Shown: positions 1 through 12,092 of the stretch, piece by piece
Layout of the letters: each line of letters opens with the position of its first letter
Numbering within the stretch: position 1 is the first letter of the stretch
DNA from: a virus
Length of the DNA: 27,995 nt
IMG/VR virus record: IMGVR_UViG_3300030390_001913
Location: 1-27,995 of that record
Reading direction: 5' to 3' (one strand)
Notes under the pieces: model-generated
Told to the model about the DNA's origin: nothing
The model's database searches: none
The model's input: the letters and a program-made list of their open reading frames with translations, nothing else
Translations under genes and position numbers: made by a program

Positions 1-112
1 GATCAATAGTTTCCGAAAATTGTCTTAGAGTATAGTTATCTGTAACTTCTAAGTCAATATAAGGTTTACCAGAATCCTGAGAAGCTTGATTTAAGTCCGA
101 GTAATTTTGCAT
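1..112 (-). CDS. C-terminally truncated small ORF at the window edge
   Basis: An open frame starts at an ATG (complement of 110-112) inside the end of the preceding 435-aa gene, overlapping it by 47 bases in a different frame, and runs off the window with 37 codons and no stop. The peptide begins MQNYSDLNQASQDSGKP and continues to DNYTLRQFSETID. The segment resembles, from memory, the start of a small conserved marine-phage protein of unknown function in which a 'Y-T-L-R-x-F' stretch is followed by a 'WH-D' motif; that second half would lie outside the window. No function can be assigned. The main doubt is that a 37-codon open frame can arise by chance in AT-rich DNA. Confidence 0.5.
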   Translation of the reverse strand, partial: MQNYSDLNQASQDSGKPYIDLEVTDNYTLRQFSETID

Positions 113-1373
113 AACGTGGTAATCTACAACTCCAATATCCAGCTTTTGTTCTATCTTTTTTAGATGAACATTTATGACGAGCAGCAAATGCTGCACGTGC
201 TTTTGAGTCATTTATTTTAGCTCTTAAACCACCAGATCCAAATCTGACAGTTTTAACTTTTTTAGTTTTAGGATCCTTAACATATACTTTATATGCTTTT
301 CCACCTGAAGATGAACGCATAGGTTTTCCTATTGGTCTATTATCTTTTTTCTTAGCTTTTTTCTTTTTAGCTTCTTCTACAACTTCTTTAATTAAATTAT
401 GCATTTTAGCTTCTTTTTCAGCTTTATCTCTTTCTTCACCCTTTAATTGTTTATAATCTTTATCAAATAAACGATGAGAAACTAAATCTAACATTTCATC
501 TTTATTTTCATTTATTTTACCTTTAGATTTAGCTTTTCTAACTAATGAATTAAAGTTAGATAAATCATATCCATCCCAAGGTTCAATTTCAGTATTGTTA
601 AAGGTTTTTTCTTGACCTGCTACTGGTTTAGAATTTAGATAATGCATTTCGTTTTGAGTCAATGTAAAGAATTTATCTACTTGATCTTGAGTAGGCATTT
701 TACCTTTATCTTCATTTAATGATTCTGAAAAATCAAAATGGCTACTAAGATTTTTTCTAAATATGTCAAAATCACTTCTATCAAAAGCTAATATTTGACC
801 GTTATTTAAATTTCTATAAACACCTTTTCCACCTTGTTCTGTACCTGTATATCTCCACATCCCACTTGAAATAGATGTATCTTGATATTTTATATTTTTA
901 TTTAAATCAAAATTTGGATATTTAGAATCTGATTCATTTATAGACATATTATCCATTTCATCACGAACCCATTCTTTTTCACCTGATCCTAATTGATCAT
1001 AATCCATTCCAAATTCCATATTTGCTAATTCATCCTCAAGATCCATTTCCTCATTTAATTCAATAGGAAAATCTAAAGGTACTTTTTTACCTTCAAACAT
1101 GCCAAAATGGCCTAAATCTGTTTCAGTTAGTAAACCTAAATCATCTTCATTAGTAAATTCTAAGATACCTCTACTATATAAAGATCTTGCTTCTGCTATT
1201 AAATCAAAGTAAGCACGTGAACCTGCACGATATAAATGCTCAGTAAGCGGTTTATTGTTGTCTATATGGTGTTTTAAACCTTCAGACAATATAGTCGCCG
1301 GAGCTTTGCTCTCATTAAGTACTAACATAGTACTTTCAGTTTCACATGTATTACATCCACATTTTTGACACAT
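66..1373 (-). CDS. Modular acidic/basic protein with DUF5754-like C-terminus; probable processed virion cargo
   Basis: 435 aa. The N-terminus is cysteine-rich (C2, C5, C7, C10), followed by a conserved-looking segment around residues 28-108 (ILSEGLKHHI, PLTEHLYRAGSRAYFDLI). The middle is acidic and low in complexity. A lysine-rich helix (about 315-345) leads into a basic C-terminal module (about 355-417) with YKVYVKDPKTKKVKTVRFG, AARHKC and KAGYWSC, which I recognise as DUF5754-like. At least seven (L/I)xE motifs (E21, E31, E61, E108, E147, E221, E289) punctuate the chain, as expected for a substrate of a T4 gp21-type prohead protease. The homologous modules occur in marine phage proteins of unknown function. 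It follows the 375-aa gene after 8 bases and is probably transcribed from the late promoter near 5620. No enzyme motif is visible; a DNA-binding or head-internal role is inference. Confidence 0.8.
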   Translation of the reverse strand: MCQKCGCNTCETESTMLVLNESKAPATILSEGLKHHIDNNKPLTEHLYRAGSRAYFDLIAEARSLYSRGILEFTNEDDLGLLTETDLGHFGMFEGKKVPLDFPIELNEEMDLEDELANMEFGMDYDQLGSGEKEWVRDEMDNMSINESDSKYPNFDLNKNIKYQDTSISSGMWRYTGTEQGGKGVYRNLNNGQILAFDRSDFDIFRKNLSSHFDFSESLNEDKGKMPTQDQVDKFFTLTQNEMHYLNSKPVAGQEKTFNNTEIEPWDGYDLSNFNSLVRKAKSKGKINENKDEMLDLVSHRLFDKDYKQLKGEERDKAEKEAKMHNLIKEVVEEAKKKKAKKKDNRPIGKPMRSSSGGKAYKVYVKDPKTKKVKTVRFGSGGLRAKINDSKARAAFAARHKCSSKKDRTKAGYWSCRLPRYAKLLGLKSSFSGFW

Positions 1374-1381
1374 ATTATTAT

Positions 1382-2509
1382 TTATTTAATTCCGTTTGTA
1401 AATGTTGAAGGAGATACTGATTTAGTAGATACAGGACCCGAAAATGTTTGAGGATTTTCATCTATATATGTTTCCATTTCTTCTCCTGATTTAACTAAAT
1501 AATCTCCAAAATTAGAAGCTGTATCAACAAAAATAAAATCTTTTACTCCTTCGGCATTAATATAATTATTAACATATATTTTTTGAAATGCCTTTCTTAA
1601 TCCAAGTGGACTATCTAATACACTATTAGTTAATACTTTATCAATATTATCAGCTTTTGGATACATTTCACCTGCTAAATCTTTTGATAGACTTAAAATT
1701 TCAGCTCTATCTTCACCTCTTTCTATTAAATCTGGTATAAACAAATCTGGTCTTACTTTATTTGATATATCTTCAAATTCATCTACTTTTTTTAATAGTG
1801 GGGTATTTCTAGAAATTGTTTGATCTCTTTTTCCTAATCTACCAGATGTTCCTTTTACTTCTAAATAATCACCATTCCAACTTAAATCACCTTTTCCTCC
1901 AGTCATCATTTTAACATCTTTTAAAAGTAATGCTAATGATATTTCTGCTTTACCTACACCTCTACCTCCTTCAGTACCTCCAAAATTAATTAAATCTCTT
2001 AAAGAATTAGGTGAAATGCCTGATTTTGCTAAATCATTAATTAAATTTGATTTTCCTGATTTTTTTAATCCTGCTAATGAAAAATGATTCCTTACTATGT
2101 ATTTTTGAAAAGCATCTACATCATTATTATTAACTAAAATATTAAATAATTCTTGAGCTGCATCTATCCCTGCTAATGTGCTTTTATTTATATCGGCATC
2201 ACTAGCTACTTGTGTAAAAAACTTTTGTTTTGGTCTATTTTTAATATATTTTTTTAAGTAAGTTATAGCTTCTTCATCATCCCCAAGATCTTTAAGTAGT
2301 ACACTTATATCTTCTCTATCTAAATCTTTTAATTCTTCATCTGGGAATAAAGATAGTTGAGCATCTTCAACTCTATCATCTGCTGCTTCTACTAAAAATT
2401 TTTCAACCATTTCAAATAATAACTTTTTTTCTTTAGGATTATTTACATCTGGGTATCCTTTAGGAAATTTATATGCTATTCTGTTTAAATATGTAGTTAA
2501 ACTATCCAT
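1382..2509 (-). CDS. PD-(D/E)XK nuclease-like protein with probable capsid-targeting leader
   Basis: 375 aa. An N-terminal region with TYLNRIAYKFPKGYPD ends in a helix with VEKFLVE (E41) followed by A, a good (L/I)xE cleavage context. The core at about residues 180-225 reads GVGKAEISLALL (E189), then GDLSWNGDYLEVKG, giving D208 followed by E217-V-K219. This order of Glu, Asp and E-x-K is what PD-(D/E)XK endonucleases show, so a DNA cleavage role is plausible. The rest (226-375) has no recognisable motif. The start ATG overlaps the stop of the 152-aa gene (TAATG), indicating translational coupling. If packaged, it could be injected to attack host DNA; that is inference. Alternatively it may be an inactive structural relative of the fold. 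Confidence 0.75.
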   Translation of the reverse strand: MDSLTTYLNRIAYKFPKGYPDVNNPKEKKLLFEMVEKFLVEAADDRVEDAQLSLFPDEELKDLDREDISVLLKDLGDDEEAITYLKKYIKNRPKQKFFTQVASDADINKSTLAGIDAAQELFNILVNNNDVDAFQKYIVRNHFSLAGLKKSGKSNLINDLAKSGISPNSLRDLINFGGTEGGRGVGKAEISLALLLKDVKMMTGGKGDLSWNGDYLEVKGTSGRLGKRDQTISRNTPLLKKVDEFEDISNKVRPDLFIPDLIERGEDRAEILSLSKDLAGEMYPKADNIDKVLTNSVLDSPLGLRKAFQKIYVNNYINAEGVKDFIFVDTASNFGDYLVKSGEEMETYIDENPQTFSGPVSTKSVSPSTFTNGIK

Positions 2510-2967
2510 TATATGTTTATTGTTTCTTCGTTGTCTATATCAACATCAATATCTTCTTCTGCTCCTCCACTTTCTGATTCACTTCCTTCACTATCTCCTG
2601 TATCTGGTGCTCCATATCGTAATATACGAGCAATAGCATCAATAGCTCTTTCTTCTTCAGGTAAATTAAGTAAATAATATTTTTTACCTTCAACTTGAGC
2701 TATCCAACTAGATCTTGTAAAAATTAAATAAAAATTAAAATCGTTTTTTAAATTTATTCTAAAAGTTGTAGGTTTAGGTGCAACCCAATCAATTGATGCT
2801 AAAAAAGCATCGAATTCATGAGTTAATAAATCAACTATTACTTTTTTTAATTGTGGGAATTTAGCAAATTCATCATACTCAACAGCAGCTGCTTCAGCTT
2901 GTTTTTTATTCCCAACTAGCGTTGGGACAAGTAATCTAATCTTTTCCCTTAATTCTGCCGCTGTCAT
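2509..2967 (-). CDS. Conserved phage protein of unknown function with acidic tail
   Basis: 152 aa. The first 120 residues look like a compact globular domain: LLTHEFDAFLASIDWVAPKP, then a beta-rich stretch (TTFRINLKN, FNFYLIFTR, WIAQVEGKKYYLLNLPEEE) and a final helix AIDAIARILRYG. I recall this pattern from uncultured marine phages, without a known role. Residues 125-152 form a very acidic Ser/Gly/Asp/Glu tail (DSEGSESESGG, EEDIDVDIDNEE), which may mimic nucleic acid or keep the protein soluble. It lies between the 578-aa gene (1-base gap) and the 375-aa nuclease-like gene (1-base overlap), so it is probably made with them late in infection. It lacks a clear N-terminal (L/I)xE leader, unlike several neighbours. 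Confidence 0.75.
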   Translation of the reverse strand: MTAAELREKIRLLVPTLVGNKKQAEAAAVEYDEFAKFPQLKKVIVDLLTHEFDAFLASIDWVAPKPTTFRINLKNDFNFYLIFTRSSWIAQVEGKKYYLLNLPEEERAIDAIARILRYGAPDTGDSEGSESESGGAEEDIDVDIDNEETINI

Positions 2968-2968
2968 G

Positions 2969-4705
2969 TTATTTTTGTTTTGCTGTTGGACCTTTTCCTC
3001 CGCCTTTTGCTTTATAGGATGCTACTGCACCTGCAATTGCTTTCGCTGCTTTTTCTGATTTGCCTTGTTTTTTAATTTTATTTACTAATTTGTCATATGA
3101 TTCATCTACTTTACCATCTTGATCTTCATCTTCAGCATCGATTTTTTTATCCCAAAATCCTTTAGGTAAACCTTCTTTTAATTCTTTAGCTAATTTTTCT
3201 GATATACGAGATACTATCCCATTAGAATTTAAATTTGAATTATCATCTGAGTTATTATTTGAGTTCTCATTTGATCCTTGATTTGTTTGTTCTTTTACTA
3301 ATGCGTCTGGGTAATATTCTGCTGGGCCTATTCTTAATTTACTCTTATCAGTAACACCAGTATCAAACCAAGATTTAATAGCATTGTCAACATTTTTACC
3401 ACCTAAGAAATGACTTAGTAAACTTTCTAATCCTTTAGATCCTTCTGCTACCCAAGCATCAAATTCTTCTTCATTATCCCACTCAAATTTATCATCTGAT
3501 GTAAATTGATATGGTGGTTTATTTTGTAAATTAGACATTGCAAATGACATCCCACTACCTTCATGATTACCATAATGTGATTCTCTAAGTGATACAACAT
3601 CTTTAGAAGGTGTTTCTTTATATTTAAAATAAATAGTATATCTCTTTTTATTACCATTATAATCTTCTAGATATACTGTTTTTGTAGCAAATGCTTTTCC
3701 GTTGTAGGCACGGCGCCATTTATTCATATTCATAGCTTCTGTTATATTAGTTTCTGTTAAATCATTAACTGATGTAATGTAATCTTCAACAGTTTCATCA
3801 ATTTCAACGTCATCTACGACTTCTATATTATCATCGCTTACTACGCTTGTAGCTACGTCAACTACATCGTCAATTTTTGGTTCATTCAATTCAAAATCAA
3901 GATACTCTTGAGCACCTGTTATTGCTTCTTTTGCTTTAAATATTTTACTTTGCCACCATGAAGGTAAATCTACTTCACCCATACCATCAAATTGATCTAA
4001 TACTCTATATAATTCCATTGATGCTTTACCAATTTGATATAAATCACCTTTAATCATAGATGGTTCATTATCCTCATGACCTAAATCTAAATCTTCTTTA
4101 ATAAATTTTGATTTAGCTGCTTTAAAATCTCCTTTATAAAGACTTTGAACTATTTTACGCCCAACCGTTTCAAGTTCATCAGCACTTAAGCTATATTTTT
4201 TTCCAAATCCTTCTAAATATCCTCTTGCTATATCTCCATAATCAGCAGGATCAATAACATCATCTACTGATTTTGCTTCTAATTCTTCTAAACCTGCAGC
4301 TGACAATGCTTCAATATCACTTGCTTCATTATCATTATCAGAGGTAATATCATAATTACCTACTTTAGGATCACCATATTGTCCACTTTCTAAGTCTCCA
4401 TCTTCACTTATATTTTTTTCAATAGCAGCACCTCTGGTTTTTTCGTAATCGGATAACTTACCATCTTTGTCTAGGTCTGCTTTTTTAGGATTTTTTAAAG
4501 CATCTTTAATTAACTCTGTTAATTTAGGATCTCTCATCTCTGTGGTTTTCTTTTTTGCCATATTAGTAGCACGTCCGTACATTACTGCCTCTGCATCTTT
4601 ACCATATTTTTTAACAAGATCTCTCTTGTTTTTTTTCATATTCATTATGATATCTTCTCTTTTATCAAGCTCAGATTTAGATAATTTACGTTCGTTTAAT
4701 GACAT
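2969..4705 (-). CDS. Multi-module protein with EF-hand-like loop and basic C-terminus; probable processed virion cargo
   Basis: 578 aa built from apparently independent modules. Residues 1-60 are basic and helical (NKRDLVKKYGKDAEAVMYGR). An EF-hand-like loop DLDKDGKLSDYE (D77, D79, D81, E88) follows, then an acidic stretch. At about 210-272 lies a segment I recall as recurrent in marine phages (MIKGDLYQIGKAS, LPSWWQSKIFKAKE, AQEYLDFEL). Next come a mixed domain (324-470), an Asn/Ser-rich linker (475-495), a second weaker Ca-loop DEDQDGKVDESY (526-537) and a very basic tail (QGKSEKAAKAIAG, GGGKGPTAKQK). (L/I)xE motifs lie near the joins: E5, E101, E204, E275, E323, E503. This fits proteolytic separation during head maturation, but no processing is shown. 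The start is 4 bases after the H1-like gene. Confidence 0.8.
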   Translation of the reverse strand: MSLNERKLSKSELDKREDIIMNMKKNKRDLVKKYGKDAEAVMYGRATNMAKKKTTEMRDPKLTELIKDALKNPKKADLDKDGKLSDYEKTRGAAIEKNISEDGDLESGQYGDPKVGNYDITSDNDNEASDIEALSAAGLEELEAKSVDDVIDPADYGDIARGYLEGFGKKYSLSADELETVGRKIVQSLYKGDFKAAKSKFIKEDLDLGHEDNEPSMIKGDLYQIGKASMELYRVLDQFDGMGEVDLPSWWQSKIFKAKEAITGAQEYLDFELNEPKIDDVVDVATSVVSDDNIEVVDDVEIDETVEDYITSVNDLTETNITEAMNMNKWRRAYNGKAFATKTVYLEDYNGNKKRYTIYFKYKETPSKDVVSLRESHYGNHEGSGMSFAMSNLQNKPPYQFTSDDKFEWDNEEEFDAWVAEGSKGLESLLSHFLGGKNVDNAIKSWFDTGVTDKSKLRIGPAEYYPDALVKEQTNQGSNENSNNNSDDNSNLNSNGIVSRISEKLAKELKEGLPKGFWDKKIDAEDEDQDGKVDESYDKLVNKIKKQGKSEKAAKAIAGAVASYKAKGGGKGPTAKQK

Positions 4706-4709
4706 TTAA

Positions 4710-4880
4710 TTATTTTTTATCCTCTGTAACAGATACTTTTCTGTACTTTGGAATTATTTTATTTATTTCTGATAAAGCTTTTCTCGCACGTCCATGAGCG
4801 GCTTTTGATTTGCCTCCATGTTCAATTGAAAATGTTTCGAATAAAACTTGAAGCTTCTCAAATAATTCTTGAGTGTTCAT
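4710..4880 (-). CDS. Histone H1-like (Hc1-type) small basic protein
   Basis: This 56-aa gene fills the space between the 578-aa and 229-aa genes. The protein begins MNTQELFEKLQVLFETFSIE and continues with HGGKSKAAHGRARKALSEI and KYRKVSV, ending EDKK. An N-terminal helix, then a 'G-K-S-A-x-x-R-A-R-K-A-L-x-E-I' core and a basic 'YRK' segment, match the pattern of the histone H1-like Hc1 family known from chlamydiae and Bacteroidota and from some of their phages. Such proteins bind and compact DNA. The ATG is 17 bases after the stop of the 229-aa gene, and its TAA stop lies 4 bases before the next ATG. It sits among probable head-cargo genes, so a role in condensing packaged or host DNA is plausible. 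Confidence 0.8.
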   Translation of the reverse strand: MNTQELFEKLQVLFETFSIEHGGKSKAAHGRARKALSEINKIIPKYRKVSVTEDKK

Positions 4881-4897
4881 TTTGTTTAATTTTTAAA

Positions 4898-5587
4898 TTA
4901 TTTAATAAGTCCTGCTAATTTTTTAAATCTAGTGATTTCTTCACTAAGAACTTCTTCTTTTATTTTTTCCTCATTGGTTGTTTTAACAACATGAGCTCTA
5001 GTATAATAAGTAATTGTATTTCCGATTTGATCCATCAGTTTATCATCACCCATTCTTTCTGCTTTTTCTTGAGCTTTTGTTAAAAGACCTAATACAGCTG
5101 ATACATCAGAAGATTCACCTGCTAATTCAGAATCAACTTCGATTTCAGATTTATCAGATACATCATCAATATCAATATCATCTTCAACATTAATATCAAC
5201 ATTATCTTCGACATCTACTTCTTCAGCTTCTCTCATAGTATCATCTTCTTCCATATCACCACGCATTTCTTCTTTAACGTCGTCTTCTTCGTAAGTACTA
5301 CGCATGCCTTCTTCAACATCATCTTCCATATAAGATCCACCTCGCATGCCTTCTTCAACATCATCCTTTTTCATTTCTTCAGAAACGTCTTTAGGTTCGT
5401 CTTTTTTAAGTTTAGCTAATTTTTCTTCATTGTCTTTAATGTCTTTTTCAAGGTTTTTTATATGGTCTCTATCATCACGGATAGCACCTTCCATACGTTT
5501 TTGTTCTTCCTTGTTTCCTTTTTTAGAATCTTCAGCCTCTGCTAAAAAGTTGGCTTTGATTATTTCTTTTAATTCCGATTTTTTCAT
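4898..5587 (-). CDS. Acidic repeat protein with probable capsid-targeting leader
   Basis: 229 aa, very acidic. The N-terminus MKKSELKEIIKANFLAEAED is an amphipathic helix ending in FLAE followed by A (E17), closely resembling the T4 capsid-targeting sequence with its gp21 cut site. Residues 25-65 look like a charged coiled coil. Residues 75-120 hold an imperfect tandem repeat of 13-14 residues (DDVEEGMR, DDVEEGMR, DDVKEEMR). A long Asp/Glu-rich stretch follows, then a helical C-terminus with EEVLSEEITRFKKLAGLIK. The C-terminal 'I-x-R-F-K-K-L-A-G-L' ending recurs in marine phage proteins, from memory. It is the first gene after a canonical late promoter. An internal head or scaffold-like protein is my best guess; no enzymatic motif is seen. 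Confidence 0.8.
   Translation of the reverse strand: MKKSELKEIIKANFLAEAEDSKKGNKEEQKRMEGAIRDDRDHIKNLEKDIKDNEEKLAKLKKDEPKDVSEEMKKDDVEEGMRGGSYMEDDVEEGMRSTYEEDDVKEEMRGDMEEDDTMREAEEVDVEDNVDINVEDDIDIDDVSDKSEIEVDSELAGESSDVSAVLGLLTKAQEKAERMGDDKLMDQIGNTITYYTRAHVVKTTNEEKIKEEVLSEEITRFKKLAGLIK
5262..5365 (-). repeat. Imperfect in-frame tandem repeat within the 229-aa acidic gene
   Basis: Two identical 23-base copies start at 5301 and 5343 (42 bases apart) and a diverged third copy starts at 5262 (39 bases away). All spacings are multiples of three. They encode DDVEEGM, DDVEEGM and DDVKEEM, each followed by a short variable spacer with a Met-Glu/Glu-Glu-Asp end. The repeat can change copy number without breaking the frame. 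Confidence 0.85.
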
Positions 5588-5612
5588 TTTATTGAATTTA
5601 TTTTAGTTGGGT

Positions 5613-5628
5613 TTATTTATAAATATAC
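5613..5628 (-). promoter_or_regulatory. T4-type late promoter
   Basis: Read on the minus strand this is GTATATTTATAAATAA, containing the T4 late consensus TATAAATA (complement of 5614-5621). It lies in the 79-base gap after the 189-aa gene, 26 bases before the ATG of the 229-aa gene. The same extended sequence occurs at two other gene starts in the window. It probably drives the operon from 5587 to the left edge. Confidence 0.8.
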
Positions 5629-5666
5629 AAAATTATTTTCTAATTGCGTATTCTTGCGTGGCTTTG

Positions 5667-6236
5667 TTATTTTTTATTATATTCTGCCTTTTTAGTGTTT
5701 TTAACGAATTGTTTTCCTTTTTTATCTCCTCGAACTTTTTTAGCTACTGTTGCTTTTCGTTCTGCTTTGGTTAAAGATTGTGCTTTTTTCTTAGGTAAAC
5801 ATCTTGTAGTTGCTTTACCTTTTTTCATAGTACCACAATCACCTGATATATTACCTGATGTATTGATTCTTACCCAATTTTCTTTTTTAAACCAATCGCG
5901 TAAGGATTCTTTAACTTGCTTAGTAACTCGCTCATAGTTAGGGGCTACATTTTCATTTAATTCATCTTGCTCATCATAGTAATCTTTTGGATGGAATTTC
6001 ATTTCAACGATTTTACCATCTGGTTTAATACTTTGACCATCAACTAAAATTTCAACTGGATATGGTTTATCTGGTTTATCATACCAATAAGCCATTTCGT
6101 AACCACCATTATCTAGTAATTCAACTATTAAACCTCTTTTATAATCTGTGTCTTCGGCTTGTAGGATTACTTTTTTACCTCTAGGTAAAATTAACTCAGC
6201 TTCAGGTACTCTATTATTATCTTTTTCTTCAGCCAT
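5667..6236 (-). CDS. Two-domain protein with DUF6321-like basic C-terminus
   Basis: 189 aa. Residues 10-85 form a beta-rich domain (LILPRGKKVILQAEDTD, RGLIVELLDNGGYEMAYWYD, YPVEILVDG). A joint QDELNE (E95) followed by N is an (L/I)xE site. The C-terminal part (about 113-185) is basic: DWFKKENWVRINTSG, GDCGTMKKG, TRCLPKKKAQSLTKAERKA, then a lysine-rich end. I recognise this as DUF6321-like (WVRI...GDCGT...RCLPK). Two cysteines (C134, C146) could bind metal or form a disulfide. It starts 2 bases after the 175-aa gene and ends its operon. Cleavage at E95 would release the basic domain, possibly a DNA-binding cargo peptide; that is inference. Confidence 0.8.
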   Translation of the reverse strand: MAEEKDNNRVPEAELILPRGKKVILQAEDTDYKRGLIVELLDNGGYEMAYWYDKPDKPYPVEILVDGQSIKPDGKIVEMKFHPKDYYDEQDELNENVAPNYERVTKQVKESLRDWFKKENWVRINTSGNISGDCGTMKKGKATTRCLPKKKAQSLTKAERKATVAKKVRGDKKGKQFVKNTKKAEYNKK

Positions 6237-6238
6237 TT

Positions 6239-6766
6239 TTATACTGCTATATTTTTAATTATAGATACTATATCTTTTCCTTTTAATGCAGCTTTTAAAC
6301 TACTTATACCCCCTGCTACTACATTAGATTTTCTTAATGAGTTAAATGCTTCTGTTCCTGCTCTTGCTCCTAAACCTAATAATAATAAAATAAATAAACT
6401 ATCAGTAATTATTGTTTTTGCTTTTTGATCTTTAGTAAATAATCCAACTACACGTTCAATTGGTTTTTTAAAATCACCTTCTAACTTATGTGTAAAATTA
6501 TATATTTTATCAGCTGCTTCTTTACCTTTACCAAAATTATATTTATCAAATAATTTACTTACATATTTAGCTAATATATTAGTTAAGGTAGTTCCTGCTA
6601 AAATGTAAGAAAGAATTGATAAGGGATCTACTACTTCATTTAATTCATCTTTTTTATCATCTAATTTATCTTTAATTACAGATGCTAATTCATCGCCTAA
6701 TAAACCTAACTCATTTTCATTTAAATAGTTTTCTTTTAGATACTTATGTATGTTGAATTTATCCAT
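6239..6766 (-). CDS. Hydrophobic protein with capsid-targeting-like leader; possible membrane-active cargo
   Basis: 175 aa. The N-terminus MDKFNIHKYLKENYLNENE contains two overlapping (L/I)xE sites (YLKE at E12, YLNE at E17), and a further DELNE (E44) precedes the main body. Two hydrophobic segments follow: about 49-68 (LSILSYILAGTTLTNILAKY) and about 118-138 (TDSLFILLLLGLGARAG), the second a convincing transmembrane helix. The remainder is basic and helical. The TAATG overlap with the 408-aa gene shows coupling. A cleaved, packaged hydrophobic protein would suit a role in DNA ejection across the inner membrane, by analogy with ejection proteins of other phages. That is inference; a host membrane protein role cannot be excluded. 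Confidence 0.75.
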   Translation of the reverse strand: MDKFNIHKYLKENYLNENELGLLGDELASVIKDKLDDKKDELNEVVDPLSILSYILAGTTLTNILAKYVSKLFDKYNFGKGKEAADKIYNFTHKLEGDFKKPIERVVGLFTKDQKAKTIITDSLFILLLLGLGARAGTEAFNSLRKSNVVAGGISSLKAALKGKDIVSIIKNIAV

Positions 6767-7992
6767 TATCCTTTCATATCACCTTTACATACTTTAACTG
6801 CACGTCCAGACAAATATGCTGATGATTTTTCACCTGCTGCCATTCTTTTTTTTCTATATGCCTCACCTTTTTTACAAAGTTTTTCAGTTAATTCTTGTTC
6901 TTTTTGTGGATTCTTTTTTCCTAAAGCTACTAATTGTTTAACAATTTTATCTGCTTCTTCTTTCGATTTACCATGCATTTGAATCATTTTAGAAACACGT
7001 TCAGGTGATGGTTTTTCATCTTCATCTAACTCACCAAACTCATATGTCCATTCCCCCTCATCCATTCTATCAAATTGTGAGGATTTATTAAATTGATCTT
7101 TAGATACTACTGTATCATACTCATCTTGAGTTATTTTACCTACTGCTACATCATAAGACATTTGTGCTTGTTCTTTTCCTTTACTTTTTATAAATCTAAT
7201 AGCTTCTTCATGTGCGTGAATTTCATCAGCATATTGGTCTGCTATAGGACCACCTTCTGGTTCAGCTTCCTGTTCCATATCTCTATAAATTTGTTCAAGA
7301 TTTCTTTCTAAATCTTCTAATTCATATCCATCAACTAATTCAGCAGCTTGTGATGAAATTTTTATTTCATTTACTTTACCTTTCATAAAAATTCTATCTC
7401 TATCAATTTCATTTTTATCTTCTTCAAAACTTCTCATCCACTTAGCTAATATTTCTCTAGCTTCTCTTTTATCTAAACCAAATTCATCTTCTAAATAAGA
7501 ACCAGCTCCAAACATATTTGTTATACCTGAATCTCTTAAATCATTTAAAAATGTAAACATTGATTTTTCAACACCTTCGTTTAATTTTTCTTTTTTTGGT
7601 AATGCAAAAAATGAGACTGAAGCTGCCCATGTTCTATCATCATCAATATCTGTTTCATAATCAGAAACACTACCATATTCATAATCAAATTTATCAGTTA
7701 TTTTATTTACTTCTTCAAATGCTTTTTTTAAATTTAAAACATCATCACCTTCAAAATAATGATTACCTCTACCCGCCATTCTTATGTAGTATCCTTTTCT
7801 ACCATCTGACATAGAACCTCTAACACTATCATCAAACTCTAATCCTGTTTCGCTATTAATAGTTTTTACTAATTTTTGAATATCATCTTCTTTTTCCATT
7901 TCATATGGAGAAATAGATTCTTCATTTAATTTAGAATATGCTTCTTTTAAATATTGGCTTTTAAACCATTTAGTAGTGTTAAAATTATCCAT
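6766..7992 (-). CDS. Modular protein with capsid-targeting-like leader and DUF5872-like C-terminus
   Basis: 408 aa. The leader MDNFNTTKWFKSQYLKEA has a YLKE site (E17) followed by A; a second site KLNE (E24) is close behind. Residues 30-133 form an alpha/beta module (GLEFDDSVRGS, GYYIRMAGRG, DDRTWAASVSFFALP), closed by KEKLNE (E139) before G. A helical module follows (ILAKWMRSFEED), then GKVNE (E209), a helical acidic region with QYADEIHAHEEAIRFI, and a basic C-terminal motif at about 370-404 (EKLCKKGEAYRKKRMAAGEK, SSAYLSGRAVKVCKG) that I recognise as DUF5872-like. It is the first gene of a late operon, 7 bases after a canonical TATAAATA. Function unknown; multi-part virion cargo is the working hypothesis. 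Confidence 0.8.
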   Translation of the reverse strand: MDNFNTTKWFKSQYLKEAYSKLNEESISPYEMEKEDDIQKLVKTINSETGLEFDDSVRGSMSDGRKGYYIRMAGRGNHYFEGDDVLNLKKAFEEVNKITDKFDYEYGSVSDYETDIDDDRTWAASVSFFALPKKEKLNEGVEKSMFTFLNDLRDSGITNMFGAGSYLEDEFGLDKREAREILAKWMRSFEEDKNEIDRDRIFMKGKVNEIKISSQAAELVDGYELEDLERNLEQIYRDMEQEAEPEGGPIADQYADEIHAHEEAIRFIKSKGKEQAQMSYDVAVGKITQDEYDTVVSKDQFNKSSQFDRMDEGEWTYEFGELDEDEKPSPERVSKMIQMHGKSKEEADKIVKQLVALGKKNPQKEQELTEKLCKKGEAYRKKRMAAGEKSSAYLSGRAVKVCKGDMKG

Positions 7993-7998
7993 TTGATT

Positions 7999-8015
7999 TT
8001 ATTTATAAATATACG
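7999..8015 (-). promoter_or_regulatory. T4-type late promoter with almost no leader
   Basis: On the minus strand: CGTATATTTATAAATAA, with TATAAATA (complement of 8000-8007) only 7 bases before the ATG at 7992. T4 late transcripts begin a few bases after this box, so the mRNA would be leaderless or nearly so. It fills the 23-base gap after the 190-aa gene and should drive the 408-, 175- and 189-aa genes. Confidence 0.8.
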
Positions 8016-8588
8016 TTATTCCCTTGCCTTTTCCCATTCTGTAATAGTTTTGTTTAAAGCTTCAATTGCTTTTACTTTATTTACGCCACCATTCCATCTT
8101 TCTACATCTCCCTGTTCAGTAATATATGATTTATTTTCAATATTAATAGCATCCATTACCCATTCTTTATACCATCTTATAAAATAATCTATATTTCCAT
8201 TAGTGGTTTTTTTGTTCCATTCTTCCCATAAACCTGTAGCTTTTAATTGTGTTTCAAATTTTTTAAAACATTTAAAACATTGATCTGTGGCCATATAGTA
8301 ACTAGGGTCCATTCCTCTATTCATAACTTTTTTACACTTAGGACAAAATAAAGGTACTATATTAGATTTTCTTGCTTTATTTAATTTAGTAATATTTTGC
8401 TTAATACCCTCTTTAATAGTCCATTGACGACCTCCTTCAGTCCAAATATCTCCTTCTTTATAAAAAGAATCTTTTTGACTATAACCTACACTTTGACCGG
8501 TTTTATCTCCAACTTTTCCAGTTACGAGATTTCTTAGACGAGTTACATCTTTTTTTCCAAATTGCTTTTTTAAAACGTTTTCTGACAT
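8016..8588 (-). CDS. Zinc-ribbon-like conserved phage protein, function unknown
   Basis: 190 aa. The N-terminal part is basic (VLKKQFGKKDVTRLRNLVTG) and contains GYSQKDSFYKEGDIWTEGG with RQWTIKEGIKQNITKLNKAR. A zinc ribbon follows: C82-P-K-C85 and C104-F-K-C107, 18 residues apart. The C-terminal part is helical (WEEWNKKT, YFIRWYKEWVMDAIN). The pattern is familiar to me from uncultured marine T4-like phages, without a known role. It lacks the (L/I)xE leader. It lies 3 bases after the 139-aa gene and ends just before a late promoter. Nucleic-acid binding through the ribbon is plausible but not shown. Confidence 0.75.
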   Translation of the reverse strand: MSENVLKKQFGKKDVTRLRNLVTGKVGDKTGQSVGYSQKDSFYKEGDIWTEGGRQWTIKEGIKQNITKLNKARKSNIVPLFCPKCKKVMNRGMDPSYYMATDQCFKCFKKFETQLKATGLWEEWNKKTTNGNIDYFIRWYKEWVMDAINIENKSYITEQGDVERWNGGVNKVKAIEALNKTITEWEKARE

Positions 8589-8591
8589 TAT

Positions 8592-9011
8592 TTATTTTTT
8601 ATATCCTTTAATAAGGGTAGTTAATTTCGATTCAGATTTACCTGATTTAGGTATTATAACTTCATTTTGTGATACTTTTATAAGTATATTATTGATGTTT
8701 TCTATTAAAAATTTTAAGTTTGAATAATTTAATCTATTATCACTATAATCTTCTTTTATTTTTTTTATAATTTGATTAGTTAATTTAGTTGATTTTATTC
8801 CTCCACTATAATCTATATTTAATTTAATACATTGTATATTAGCTACCAAAAAAGTTAAATCTATATCTTTTAAATCATTATTTTTATATGCTTTTTTAAT
8901 AGAAGGAATAATTTCATTTATATAAATTTTAGGTTGAGGTGTTAATTTAGGAGAAGGAGTACTTTTATCTCCTCCTTTATATCCTCCTGATTTTAAATTT
9001 ATTATACTCAT
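8592..9011 (-). CDS. Small lysine-rich protein of unknown function
   Basis: 139 aa. The first 30 residues are Gly/Ser/Pro/Lys-rich and probably disordered (SGGYKGGDKSTPSPKLTPQ). The rest is alternating helical sequence rich in Ile, Asn and Lys (IIPSIKKAYKNN, LTFLVANIQCIKLNIDYSGG, LKFLIENINNILIKV), possibly two related helical units, since 'DLTFLVANIQCI' and 'NLKFLIENINNI' are similar. The start overlaps the stop of the 754-aa gene (ATGA), so translation is coupled to it. One INE tripeptide (about residue 33) occurs but is not a convincing processing site. I do not recognise a family. Confidence 0.65.
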   Translation of the reverse strand: MSIINLKSGGYKGGDKSTPSPKLTPQPKIYINEIIPSIKKAYKNNDLKDIDLTFLVANIQCIKLNIDYSGGIKSTKLTNQIIKKIKEDYSDNRLNYSNLKFLIENINNILIKVSQNEVIIPKSGKSESKLTTLIKGYKK

Positions 9012-11272
9012 AGTCCTAATTTTTTAAGTTGACTAATAGTATCTGATGCTGAAGTATGTAATATTCCAATTCCACCTTGTGCTCTCCACTGTTCTATATT
9101 AGATTTTCTATCATCTATTAGTATGTGGTTAGGAGCAGCATAATTTTGTTTTTTAGATGCTTGTGCTAGTGTTAATTTAATTCCTGGCATATTATTTCTT
9201 ACCCATAATCTTTTACCTAATCTTGATGTAGCTGATCTTGAGGGAGAAGATAATAATTCTGTATCATAATTTTTAATATAATCCCAATACTGTTTTCCAT
9301 CCTTCATCCAAGGCATGCCAACCCAAAATCCTACTTTACCTTGACCATCAATTAATTTCCAAAATTCTTCTTTACCATATTTTTTTTCATAATCTGATGG
9401 TGCTATTCCATCTGAATATTTTTTAAATGATTCATCAAAATCTGTTAAAACACCATCCATGTCTGAAAATATTTTATATTTTTCTTCATTTTCAAATAGT
9501 GGTATGTTTAGCTTTGGAGCTCTATTTCTCCATAAATTTTTTATATCTCTTTGATCATTTGTATCTAAATTTAATTCATATTTTAAATAATTATCAATTA
9601 TATTTTTTAAAGGTTTTCTTGATTTTTTTGCTTTTAAATATAAACCCTGCAAATTAGCATCAATTTCTTTTTCTAATTTATAATAATCAGGAGTACCTAA
9701 TTTTTTTCTCCAAATTTTCCACCAAGGTTTTTTACCAGTTTTTAATTCATCTCTTTCAGCAGAGTCAGATTCCATTTCTTTACCTGTCTTGACATTAATG
9801 CCACTTTGCATTAAATGTTCAATTTCATGTCTAATTACATTCCTAATATCCATTGAAATTTGTTCCCACATTCTAGGTAATTCATCTATAGGAATTCTAT
9901 AATTTAATTCTACTTCTGGGATTGGTTTTTTTATAGGACGAGCTACCCCTGATGAATTAAAATCATCTACAAAATTAGCTTTTGCTATATATAAAAATTT
10001 TAAATAAGGGTATTCAAATTCTTCTCCAGGACCTACTTTTAAACTAAAATAACCTTTATTTTGACTATCTTCAAAATCACCTTTCCAAGCATTTAAAGTA
10101 TAACCTGCTAATTTAGTTACTAATGAATCATACTTACCTTCATTTAATACTTCCTTAGCTACTTCTTTAATAAATTTATTTATTCCAAAATGGTCTTTAT
10201 TTTCATTTAAAAATTCATTATCATGTCCACATTTATGGCATATAAATAAATCATTACCTCCATCTTTTATTTTCCAACTCCAATTACATTTATCACATTC
10301 AATTTTATCATCTACAATAGCTTCTGTTATACTAGAACTAACATCACCATCTATAGAATCTGTCCAATTTCTAAACATCATATTGCCTTCTGAATACGCT
10401 TCTCTTTCAATAGCATCTAAATCTTCATCTGCTGTTGTATCTGTCGTTTGAAGATTTCCAATTCTATCTTCTAAATTTTGGGTATGGTGAACCATTTCAT
10501 GAGCAAATGATCTGACAATATCTTTAGGATGTCTTCCTTCAGTATATAAAACTATAGTTTTAGTATTAGGATCATAATATGCTGTTCTACCAAAGAAATT
10601 TTTAGCATTATTATCATCTCCATCTATAAATTCTAAATCTGGTAATGGTAAAATATTTCTATTATTTTCTATCATATAATCTACTAAATCAACTATCATT
10701 TGCTTATAATCTATATACTCAGAATAAGTTGCATTTTCATTTATACTCTCATTAGTAGGGGGTCGTAGTATAGAATATATTTCTGATTTTTCTTCTACTT
10801 CAGATGGTAAAAATTCAATAAATTCTTTTTCTGATTTGTTAAGTGCCTTTCTTGCATTAGTTCCACTCATATTAGGATCATAAGTAGGAATAACTTTAAC
10901 TACAATATTTGGATATTTTTTTTCTATATCTCCTGTTCTTGCTGATACATCATCTAAATCATCCTGTCTTCCTTCTCTGTAACCAATAACAAAATAAATT
11001 ATATCTTGAGGATTATTTTTAGCTAAACGTAAAATATCTCCAATTGGAGATTTTACAGGTTCTATTTTAACTTTATTTGCTAAATATCTTTTGTAAATAT
11101 CCCAAACTAAAACAGATTCAGTTTGTTCAATACCATCACGTACTTTTCCTCCTACAAATATTGTAAATTCATCTATTTCAGGATAATCCTGTAATGCACG
11201 TTTTACAATTTCAAAATGACCTGCTGTTGGTGGTTTAAACCCACCCCCGTATGCTGCTAAAATTTTACCCAT
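9008..11272 (-). CDS. Five-domain multi-enzyme polyprotein: nucleotidyltransferase, two HExxH domains, zinc ribbon, HAD phosphatase
   Basis: 754 aa. Residues 1-170 are a cytidylyltransferase-type nucleotidyltransferase: GGGFKPPTAGH carries the HIGH-like motif (T16-A-G-H19) and SGTNARKA (136-143) the second ATP-binding motif. Residues 180-317 hold FAHEMVHH (H258, E259, H262) with EREAY (about 289-293) as possible third zinc ligand. Residues 318-357 hold a zinc ribbon (C326, C329, C345, C348). Residues 379-594 hold IRHEIEHLMQ (H482, E483, H486) with E534/E536 as candidate third ligand. Residues 595-754 are HAD-like: SDMDGVLTDFD (D604, D606), SSPSRS and ILIDDRKSN (D720, D721), similar to 5'(3')-deoxyribonucleotidases. 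Each joint carries an (L/I)xE: E179, E317, E357, E378, E594. The start overlaps the kinase gene by 8 bases. Substrates are unknown; the five domains are well supported, the cleavage is inference. Confidence 0.85.
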   Translation of the reverse strand: MGKILAAYGGGFKPPTAGHFEIVKRALQDYPEIDEFTIFVGGKVRDGIEQTESVLVWDIYKRYLANKVKIEPVKSPIGDILRLAKNNPQDIIYFVIGYREGRQDDLDDVSARTGDIEKKYPNIVVKVIPTYDPNMSGTNARKALNKSEKEFIEFLPSEVEEKSEIYSILRPPTNESINENATYSEYIDYKQMIVDLVDYMIENNRNILPLPDLEFIDGDDNNAKNFFGRTAYYDPNTKTIVLYTEGRHPKDIVRSFAHEMVHHTQNLEDRIGNLQTTDTTADEDLDAIEREAYSEGNMMFRNWTDSIDGDVSSSITEAIVDDKIECDKCNWSWKIKDGGNDLFICHKCGHDNEFLNENKDHFGINKFIKEVAKEVLNEGKYDSLVTKLAGYTLNAWKGDFEDSQNKGYFSLKVGPGEEFEYPYLKFLYIAKANFVDDFNSSGVARPIKKPIPEVELNYRIPIDELPRMWEQISMDIRNVIRHEIEHLMQSGINVKTGKEMESDSAERDELKTGKKPWWKIWRKKLGTPDYYKLEKEIDANLQGLYLKAKKSRKPLKNIIDNYLKYELNLDTNDQRDIKNLWRNRAPKLNIPLFENEEKYKIFSDMDGVLTDFDESFKKYSDGIAPSDYEKKYGKEEFWKLIDGQGKVGFWVGMPWMKDGKQYWDYIKNYDTELLSSPSRSATSRLGKRLWVRNNMPGIKLTLAQASKKQNYAAPNHILIDDRKSNIEQWRAQGGIGILHTSASDTISQLKKLGL

Positions 11273-12092
11273 TTATAAATGATTTTAATTTTGCTTGTGC
11301 TTCTTCAGCTGATACTGAGTTGTCAATAACATCTTTTACTCCACCATCTGATAAAAATGATTTTATTTGAGTATTTATAGCTGCTTTTCTTTTATCTGAT
11401 CTTGCTTGTGCTTTAGCATCTTTAGGTTTTGTACCTTGCGGTTTGTATGGAGTTAAGTATTTATTTACTATATCTTCTAAATTATCTAATTTTTCATCTT
11501 TTAAAGTGTTAGCAACTGATACAAAATTATTACCAAAAGAACTTTTATATTCATTATAATTTTTAGTTACATCATTCCAAGTAGTCATAACAATTGCTGG
11601 GGCTAAACTTCTATCTTCACCTCCTGATTTATCAAATCTATCTTGGTTTTGTTTTAATGAACGTTCTAAATCTGTGTAAACATAAAGCATAAATACATCA
11701 TATCCTGCGTTTTCTAATTCATCTTTTAATTTAAGTGTAGCTCGGCTTGAAGCTCCTGTACCATCTAATATAAATGATTCTCTACTAGCTATTGCTTTAG
11801 GTAAATCTTCATCTTTTAATTTTGAAGCTGCTTGTCTCATTAATTTAGCTGATGTACTTCTTTCTTCTGGGGTAGCATTTTTTAAATCTAAACTAACACC
11901 TGCTTTTTTAAGTAAAGGAACAAAATCTAAATCTAAATTATAAGTAGTTAAACCTGATAAATCTAGACCACGTAAAATATAACCTTTACCTGCTCCAGGA
12001 GCACCAGCTAATATAATAGCTTTAGGATTATTAGAAATTTCTTTCAGTAGTTTACCTTCTGCTATATATTTTTTATAGTCAAAATTATCCAT
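11265..12092 (-). CDS. P-loop kinase (zeta-toxin/AAA-like) with capsid-targeting-like leader
   Basis: 275 aa. The leader MDNFDYKKYIAEGKLLKE ends in YIAE followed by G (E12), strikingly like the T4 internal-protein leader that ends in FIAE before A; LLKE (E18) is a second site. Walker A is GAPGAGKG (30-37, K36). Later segments fit a small kinase: LDLDFVPLL, FILDGTGASSRATLKLKDEL (Walker B-like region about residue 108-115), and DVFMLYVYTDLERSLKQNQDR (base-binding or lid-like). The fold resembles zeta toxins and polynucleotide or small-molecule kinases; the substrate cannot be read from sequence. The C-terminus (215-275) is basic and helical (KPKDAKAQARSDKRKAA). It is followed by the 754-aa gene with an 8-base overlap and preceded by a variant late promoter, which fits a late, packaged enzyme. 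Confidence 0.8.
   Translation of the reverse strand: MDNFDYKKYIAEGKLLKEISNNPKAIILAGAPGAGKGYILRGLDLSGLTTYNLDLDFVPLLKKAGVSLDLKNATPEERSTSAKLMRQAASKLKDEDLPKAIASRESFILDGTGASSRATLKLKDELENAGYDVFMLYVYTDLERSLKQNQDRFDKSGGEDRSLAPAIVMTTWNDVTKNYNEYKSSFGNNFVSVANTLKDEKLDNLEDIVNKYLTPYKPQGTKPKDAKAQARSDKRKAAINTQIKSFLSDGGVKDVIDNSVSAEEAQAKLKSFING

Follow-up and report, generated by a model that had tools for sequence, protein, structure and literature searches.

A leader-bearing gene cluster in an uncultured virus probably encodes head cargo of a T4-related phage

Among described systems, the internal proteins of phage T4 come closest to the gene cluster analysed here. IPI, IPII, IPIII and Alt each carry a capsid-targeting sequence (CTS) that is cut by gp21, a short aromatic N-terminal propeptide ending in (I/L)xE before a small residue, and in IPIII targeting needs no more than the first ten residues, of which positions 4 and 7 serve targeting and positions 8 and 10 processing (PMC9026906). 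As controls, the T4 sequences give MKTYQEFIAE↓A at the start of IPII and IPIII and ITE19↓A in IPI, where the arrow marks the cut, actual or putative. Comparable too are the T4 scaffold proteins gp22, gp67 and gp68, with many LxE sites per protein and cutting by gp21 to several fragments (PMC9026906), and the head proteins of phiKZ, 201phi2-1 and SPN3US, some of them thought to be ejected, from which a gp21-like protease removes N-terminal propeptides (PMC9026906, PMC10052503). Polyvalent proteins, in which one phage protein combines several domains of metallopeptidase, nucleotidyltransferase and zeta-toxin type and which are in some cases packaged (PMC5512222, J Bacteriol 2017), provide a further point of comparison.

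The window, that is, the whole 27,995-base stretch that we analysed, comprises bases 1-27995 of a 48,904-base (48.9-kb) virus record, in which tail genes, a primase gene and an exonuclease gene are followed by a cluster of cargo genes, the gene for a 435-aa protein being the last (Table 1). The original prediction had noticed amphipathic stretches ending in (L/I)xE at the starts of a kinase and of 408-aa, 175-aa and 229-aa proteins, together with FLVE↓A at residue 41 of a 375-aa protein, and had read them as T4-type leaders of injected cargo. The observation is real and confirmed: the four quoted N-termini are all present, on the minus strand like all the cargo-cluster genes named there, and FLVE↓A is found at residue 41. 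We think it likely that the genes of the cluster specify the head cargo of a T4-related marine myophage. Each cargo would be bound to the prohead core by a short leader at its N-terminus; a serine protease of the gp21 type, whose gene in relatives lies just past the point where our contig ends, would cut after the Glu of [L/I]xE and so remove the leader; and the mature protein would stay in the head and enter the host with the DNA. Long cargos such as the 754-aa chain would probably be cut at their module joints to give separate enzymes inside the prohead. We infer recruitment and leader removal or dicing from comparative evidence and T4 precedent, while for injection into the host the argument is the T4 precedent. 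No virion proteomics or N-terminal sequencing for phages with such leaders was found in the literature.

Table 1. Features of the cargo cluster, with positions in the window, and two features located in relatives
Feature	Position	Strand	Sequence or sites	Remarks
435-aa protein	66-1373	-	starts MCQKCGCNTCETESTMLVLNE	cysteine-rich
435-aa protein, N-terminal part	1239..1373	-	LNE21↓S, LSE31↓G, LTE45↓H	weak, motif only
375-aa PD-(D/E)XK-like protein	1382-2509	-		
375-aa protein, N-terminal segment	2387..2509	-	ends FLVE41↓A	alignment; structure model
578-aa modular acidic protein	2969..4705	-	ISE101↓D, IKE204↓D, LNE275↓P	sites at alignment breakpoints
229-aa protein	4898-5587	-	N-terminus MKKSELKEIIKANFLAEA	
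229-aa protein, C-terminus	4901..4930	-	RFKKLAGLIK	same motif as head scaffold C-terminus
229-aa protein, class B leader	5537..5587	-	MKKSELKEIIKANFLAE↓A	
189-aa protein	5667-6236			leaderless in window
175-aa hydrophobic protein	6239-6766	-	N-terminus MDKFNIHKYLKENYLNEN	
175-aa protein, leader	6716..6766	-	MDKFNIHKYLKE↓NYLNE↓N	
408-aa protein	6766-7992	-	N-terminus MDNFNTTKWFKSQYLKEA	
408-aa protein, C-end module	6769..6882	-	CKKGEAYRKKRMAAGEKSSAYLSGRAVKVCKG	LTE370↓ before it
408-aa protein, class A leader	7942..7992	-	MDNFNTTKWFKSQYLKE↓A	NITKWFKxQYLxE subtype
754-aa modular chain	9008..11272	-		no N-terminal leader in window copy
Joint before nucleotidase	9491..9499	-	LFE594↓N	linker 593-596; alignment breakpoints cluster; less regular in homologs
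Joint before metalloprotease-like 2	10139..10147	-	LNE378↓G	linker 353-379; 17/17
Joint after Zn ribbon	10202..10210	-	LNE357↓N	linker 353-379
Joint before Zn ribbon	10322..10330	-	ITE317↓A	linker 309-320; 9/9 on module motif
Joint before metalloprotease-like 1	10736..10744	-	INE179↓N	linker 173-186; LxE in 21/21 homologous joints
Kinase cargo, 275 aa	11265..12092	-	N-terminus MDNFDYKKYIAEG	Zeta_toxin PF06414, E 2.9e-17
Kinase class A leader, residues 1-18	12039..12092	-	MDNFDYKKYIAE↓GKLLKE↓	two LxE sites, second conserved
Rossmann-type gene in relatives	G008 L047:17191-18807; G018 L046; G016 L050:18360-19649			
Scaffold-tail motif loci in relatives	L042:40627-41868; L043-L045			

A profile search of the leader across related genomes had been proposed, and at least 120 stretches of viral contigs matched the leader DNA pattern M(D/E)NF(D/N)xxK(Y/F)hxE. 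At least five interchangeable N-terminal leader types were seen: class A (MDNFDLKKYLAEGKLLKE), class B (MKKSELKxIIKExLxE), class C (MISLVQLLKE), class D (MKELYRFRQFLTE) and class E (M..E.LRMQKLAGIITE). Among the matches listed, types A-D stand at the head of at least 316 proteins whose mature parts fall into at least 115 unrelated clusters (78 singletons), and Pfam matched 8 families, several of them DUFs, across 106 leader-bearing representatives. Homologous cargos often change leader type at an [L/I]xE. A common LxE lies where homology starts in 274 of 330 homologous pairs with differing leader type, a figure in which 246 of the 330 are kinase pairs and the independent families number about a dozen, one of them a spurious signal-peptide family; further swaps distinguish L066 from L116 and L084 from L116. 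The set selected by the pattern is biased to LxE by construction, and the tests on the kinase, the 375-aa protein and the modules are unbiased in this respect. On these comparisons, the leader behaves as a detachable module, an exchangeable address label on unrelated cargos. Used alone as a tblastn query among isolate phages, the leader found a match only in the Flavobacterium phage immuto, at E 9; immuto is also the annotated relative that we reached through homology to the 754-aa protein. A baseplate-region protein (L001:3449-3865, immuto gp114) starts with a class-B-like amphipathic helix, MKTSALKSIIKEAVREAIQEELKEILLE, and class B leaders may not be exclusive to head cargo.

The kinase illustrates such exchange most fully. 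In the window it carries a class A leader, while most relatives have class C on kinases up to 90% identical. The original prediction was right that a leader with LxE is present, but the conserved site is LLKE18↓I and not IAE12↓G: all 46 homologs have [LIVMF]xE directly ahead of the kinase domain, 43 of them at a distance of exactly 4 residues from PKAIILAG, and it is this second site that survives wholesale replacement of the leader. We therefore replaced IAE12 with LLKE18 as the main kinase site. Likewise, the 229-aa protein reads MKKSELKEIIKANFLAE↓AEDSKKGNK in the window and, with a class A leader, MDNFDYKKYLSSGMIHNFDQINE↓KKEDSKKGNK in relative G016. Homologs of the 175-aa protein bear other leaders (L009, L012, L050, immuto gp095), and the leader subtype of the 408-aa protein recurs in L003, L009-L012, L015, L020, L071, L110 and L139. 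Some cargo-cluster genes have no leader at all. One of them encodes the 189-aa protein, whose homologs in L039 and L121 do possess a class A leader, whose C-terminal part matches phrog_23735/14910 and in which SLRDWFKKENWVRI is preceded by VKE. In the 435-aa protein, a cysteine-rich start followed by several LxE is conserved in many relatives. The predicted cargo set is supported and is larger than stated: there are at least five leader types, and the leaderless 754-aa chain looks cleavable.

The site in the 375-aa protein differs in lying within a longer N-terminal segment, where hydrophobic-x-E occurs in 9 of 10 aligned family members (alignment read by eye). Its structure model (pLDDT 62.5) has a helix to about residue 51, with low confidence at 42-55. 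D208 and K219 are invariant in the family alignment and E217 nearly so, giving a putative D...ExK motif, and the best Foldseek match of the model is a weak one to HinP1I (E 0.54). We treat the protein as PD-(D/E)XK-like, a candidate nuclease.

How far does the motif itself carry this argument? Three of 57 contig proteins start with M[DE][NK]F[DN], against 0.008 expected. On the window contig, 6 of 12 cargo genes and 10 of 45 others have a bare [LI]xE within residues 6-22 (p=0.065), so that N-terminal enrichment within this contig alone is not significant and only suggestive. In the complete genome of immuto the corresponding counts are 15 of 21 for the cluster and 38 of 178 for the remaining genes (Fisher p=7e-6), which include those of head proteins and of further leader proteins such as gp003 and gp231; composition shuffles gave a mean of 4.9 and a maximum of 11. 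The motif is short, with a background of about 1.4% per residue. The exonuclease, which had been described as beginning without a leader, holds ILE15 and ISE18 by chance, a correction from which it follows that LxE alone is not diagnostic and that leader type is.

No head genes were seen in the 48.9-kb record of the window phage, which stops short of them, and a PF03420 profile search of that record, run without a positive control, gave no match; since the record stops before the head genes, it neither shows nor excludes a prohead protease by itself. In immuto, primase, exonuclease and a small-protein cluster are followed by the 375-aa homolog gp078, gp077, gp076, terminase and portal, and then by the prohead core serine protease gp070, gp069, the scaffold gp067 (our own assignment) and the gp23-type major capsid protein gp066. 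Peptidase_S77, Gp23 and Portal_T4 were confirmed by Pfam, and near relatives have the common order of cargo cluster, terminase, portal, protease, scaffold and gp23. Immuto gp077, gp076 and gp069 start MADNFNLRSFLTEN, MENFDLKKFLVEN and MENNFDIHKWQAKFLKE, respectively, and gp080 starts MKKSQLRQIIKEAL. Between the cargo genes and the terminase, relatives have a gene with a Rossmann-type (FAD/NAD-binding-like) start, (M)SKKVVIVGAGVAGVNAATKLVDN. Leader-bearing genes of immuto are also present at a distance from the head cluster: gp003, gp230 and gp231 (classes A, E and C) have genes for replication and metabolism around them. We found no published virion proteomics of immuto, and PMC7077304 does not mention this phage.

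Absence of a prohead protease had been named in advance as refuting the prediction, and a gp21-type gene near the capsid gene as the thing to look for. Such a gene was found in the gene order of relatives rather than in the phage's own record. Three contigs from relatives, each with the kinase or the 375-aa gene of the window, also encode a homolog of gp070, and on one of them the 375-aa protein is 82% identical to ours. PF03420 matched 14 of 19 records, among which are all six leader-bearing contigs tested that reach 100 kb or more; immuto has a match as well. T4 gp21 and the proteases of four relatives have GELxHP and G(V/I)SSRG in common, motifs that hold His85 and Ser140 (T4 numbering), which we take to be the catalytic residues of a gp21-type protease. 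Moreover, the gp23 propeptides of relatives end IVSE↓A, LVTE↓N and LVTE↓T, cut positions that we place by homology at the site of FLTE65↓A in T4 gp23. Classes A and D also share with the T4 CTS a layout of aromatics followed by (L/I)xE, a comparison made by eye on stretches too short for homology. The protease in relatives, the detachability of the leader on unrelated cargos and this likeness to the CTS together give good support to the T4-type capsid-targeting reading. Amphipathic N-terminal helices are able to bind membranes, and with the class-B-like start of a baseplate-region protein one might suppose that they address the host membrane or the tail instead of the head. We judge this very improbable, as the cargo genes adjoin terminase, portal, protease and gp23, the class A protein gp069 of immuto directly follows the protease gene, and the head-targeting sequence of T4 has the same aromatic-then-(I/L)xE layout.

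The scaffold itself offers a further possible address. Its C-terminus is R(F/M/W)xKLAGII(K) in immuto and the relatives tested, and the R(F/M/W)xKLAGII motif opens class E cargos (e.g. RMQKLAGII), followed by TE↓S or TE↓G. A peptide of this kind would bind core or shell, staying uncut at a C-terminus and being cut off at an N-terminus. That the 229-aa protein ends in the scaffold's motif, and that some leader proteins are small and acidic, could also mean that the leaders are core- or scaffold-binding helices that are never removed, and that the proteins form a structural prohead core serving assembly only, like T4 gp67, gp68 and gp22. We regard this as unlikely: cargos that comprise a Zeta-type kinase and a PD-(D/E)XK-like protein, besides numerous unrelated accessories differing from phage to phage, do not resemble a core, and LxE is retained through changes of leader.

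Head cargo would also include the 754-aa chain, whose modules run nucleotidyltransferase, metalloprotease-like 1, Zn ribbon, metalloprotease-like 2 and 5'-deoxyribonucleotidase. Homologs of about 500 to 1300 aa have modules in varying order, and in some relatives MNHLTRSLLEGLLEE or MNKLIKLLLEGLLPE opens the protein, ahead of the same domain. Whatever lies upstream, LxE precedes the GKYDSLV module in 17 of 17 cases, the NA(T/S)YS module in 21 of 21 and the Zn ribbon in 9 of 9, with varying middle residues and codons. In the AlphaFold2 model (mean pLDDT 75), the low-confidence segments 173-186, 309-320, 353-379 and 593-596 contain the joints, and a further one, 490-533, has none. Foldseek matches to NadD/CoaD-type nucleotidyltransferases and HAD-type hydrolases fit the first and last domains; the HExxH-type modules have HEMVHH and HEIEH motifs, with Pfam matches below cut-off. 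Across cargo alignments, 11.2% of breakpoints have LxE at the start position against a 2.9% baseline (non-cargo, 1.8% against 1.3%), and by module context LxE occurs in 41% of cargo cases against 21% in the internal control (others, 16% against 14%). The joint rule is strong for several modules and not universal: LxE at every module joint is ruled out, as the SGGKAYKVYV and MEQEAEPEGG modules lack it at their breakpoints.

LNE is the commonest joint form, TTAAATGAA is its commonest codon set, and the LxE background is higher in cargo than in other proteins, as would be expected if LxE at starts and joints were incidental to flexible linkers that are acidic and rich in helix, or to recombination-promoting TTAAATGAA DNA, with no proteolysis involved. 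This explanation seems to us quite improbable. The codons and middle residue vary widely (TTAAAAGAA, CTTAAAGAG, ATGGCAGAA, CTTTTAGAG and others), the placement of LxE is exactly kept, no peak appears at background offsets or in non-cargo proteins, and the gp23 propeptide ends in the same motif; a DNA-level recombination sequence was judged unlikely as the cause because the codons vary. Cleavage by the prohead protease is the reading we retain, and the comparisons suggest that the 754-aa chain is a cargo polyprotein diced by that enzyme. We lean, by a small margin of belief, toward the general form of this proposal, in which head cargo would be made as polyproteins that are cut apart in the prohead, each enzyme then being delivered on its own, and the cut sites would double as points of module and leader shuffling. 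In the open-access literature searched, we came across no account of a prohead protease that cuts polyprotein cargo of a phage.

If these readings are correct, the proteins that a large group of uncultured T4-like phages inject could be recognised from leader type together with the LxE rule; Pfam matches very few of these cargo proteins. The idea that T4-like capsid-targeting sequences carry diverse proteins would become a testable census. Two things would be new to phage biology, a prohead protease that processes polyproteins and an address peptide shared with the scaffold tail, and the leaders could be used as they are to tag proteins for loading into phage heads.

Compared with the T4 internal proteins, then, the cluster is alike in its unrelated mature parts, its cognate PF03420 protease and its gp23-type head (protease and gp23 being found here in relatives), but has several leader types, some with tandem LxE, at least about 115 cargo groups among the matches listed, swapped leaders, LxE at the internal joints of modular cargos, and often G, N, D or E besides A after the Glu. 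In phiKZ the motif is S/A-x-E, most SPN3US propeptides are long, and the available text of PMC9026906 and PMC10052503 describes no cut-apart enzyme chains; here the kinase site and the module joints examined have L, I, V or M at P3, not the S or A of phiKZ type. Fragments of the T4 scaffold are mostly discarded (PMC9026906), whereas the pieces between sites here are folded domains. Finally, the 754-aa protein, with two candidate metallopeptidase modules, resembles polyvalent proteins in having several effector-type domains in one chain, but its joints carry the consensus of the prohead protease, which suggests separate mature enzymes.
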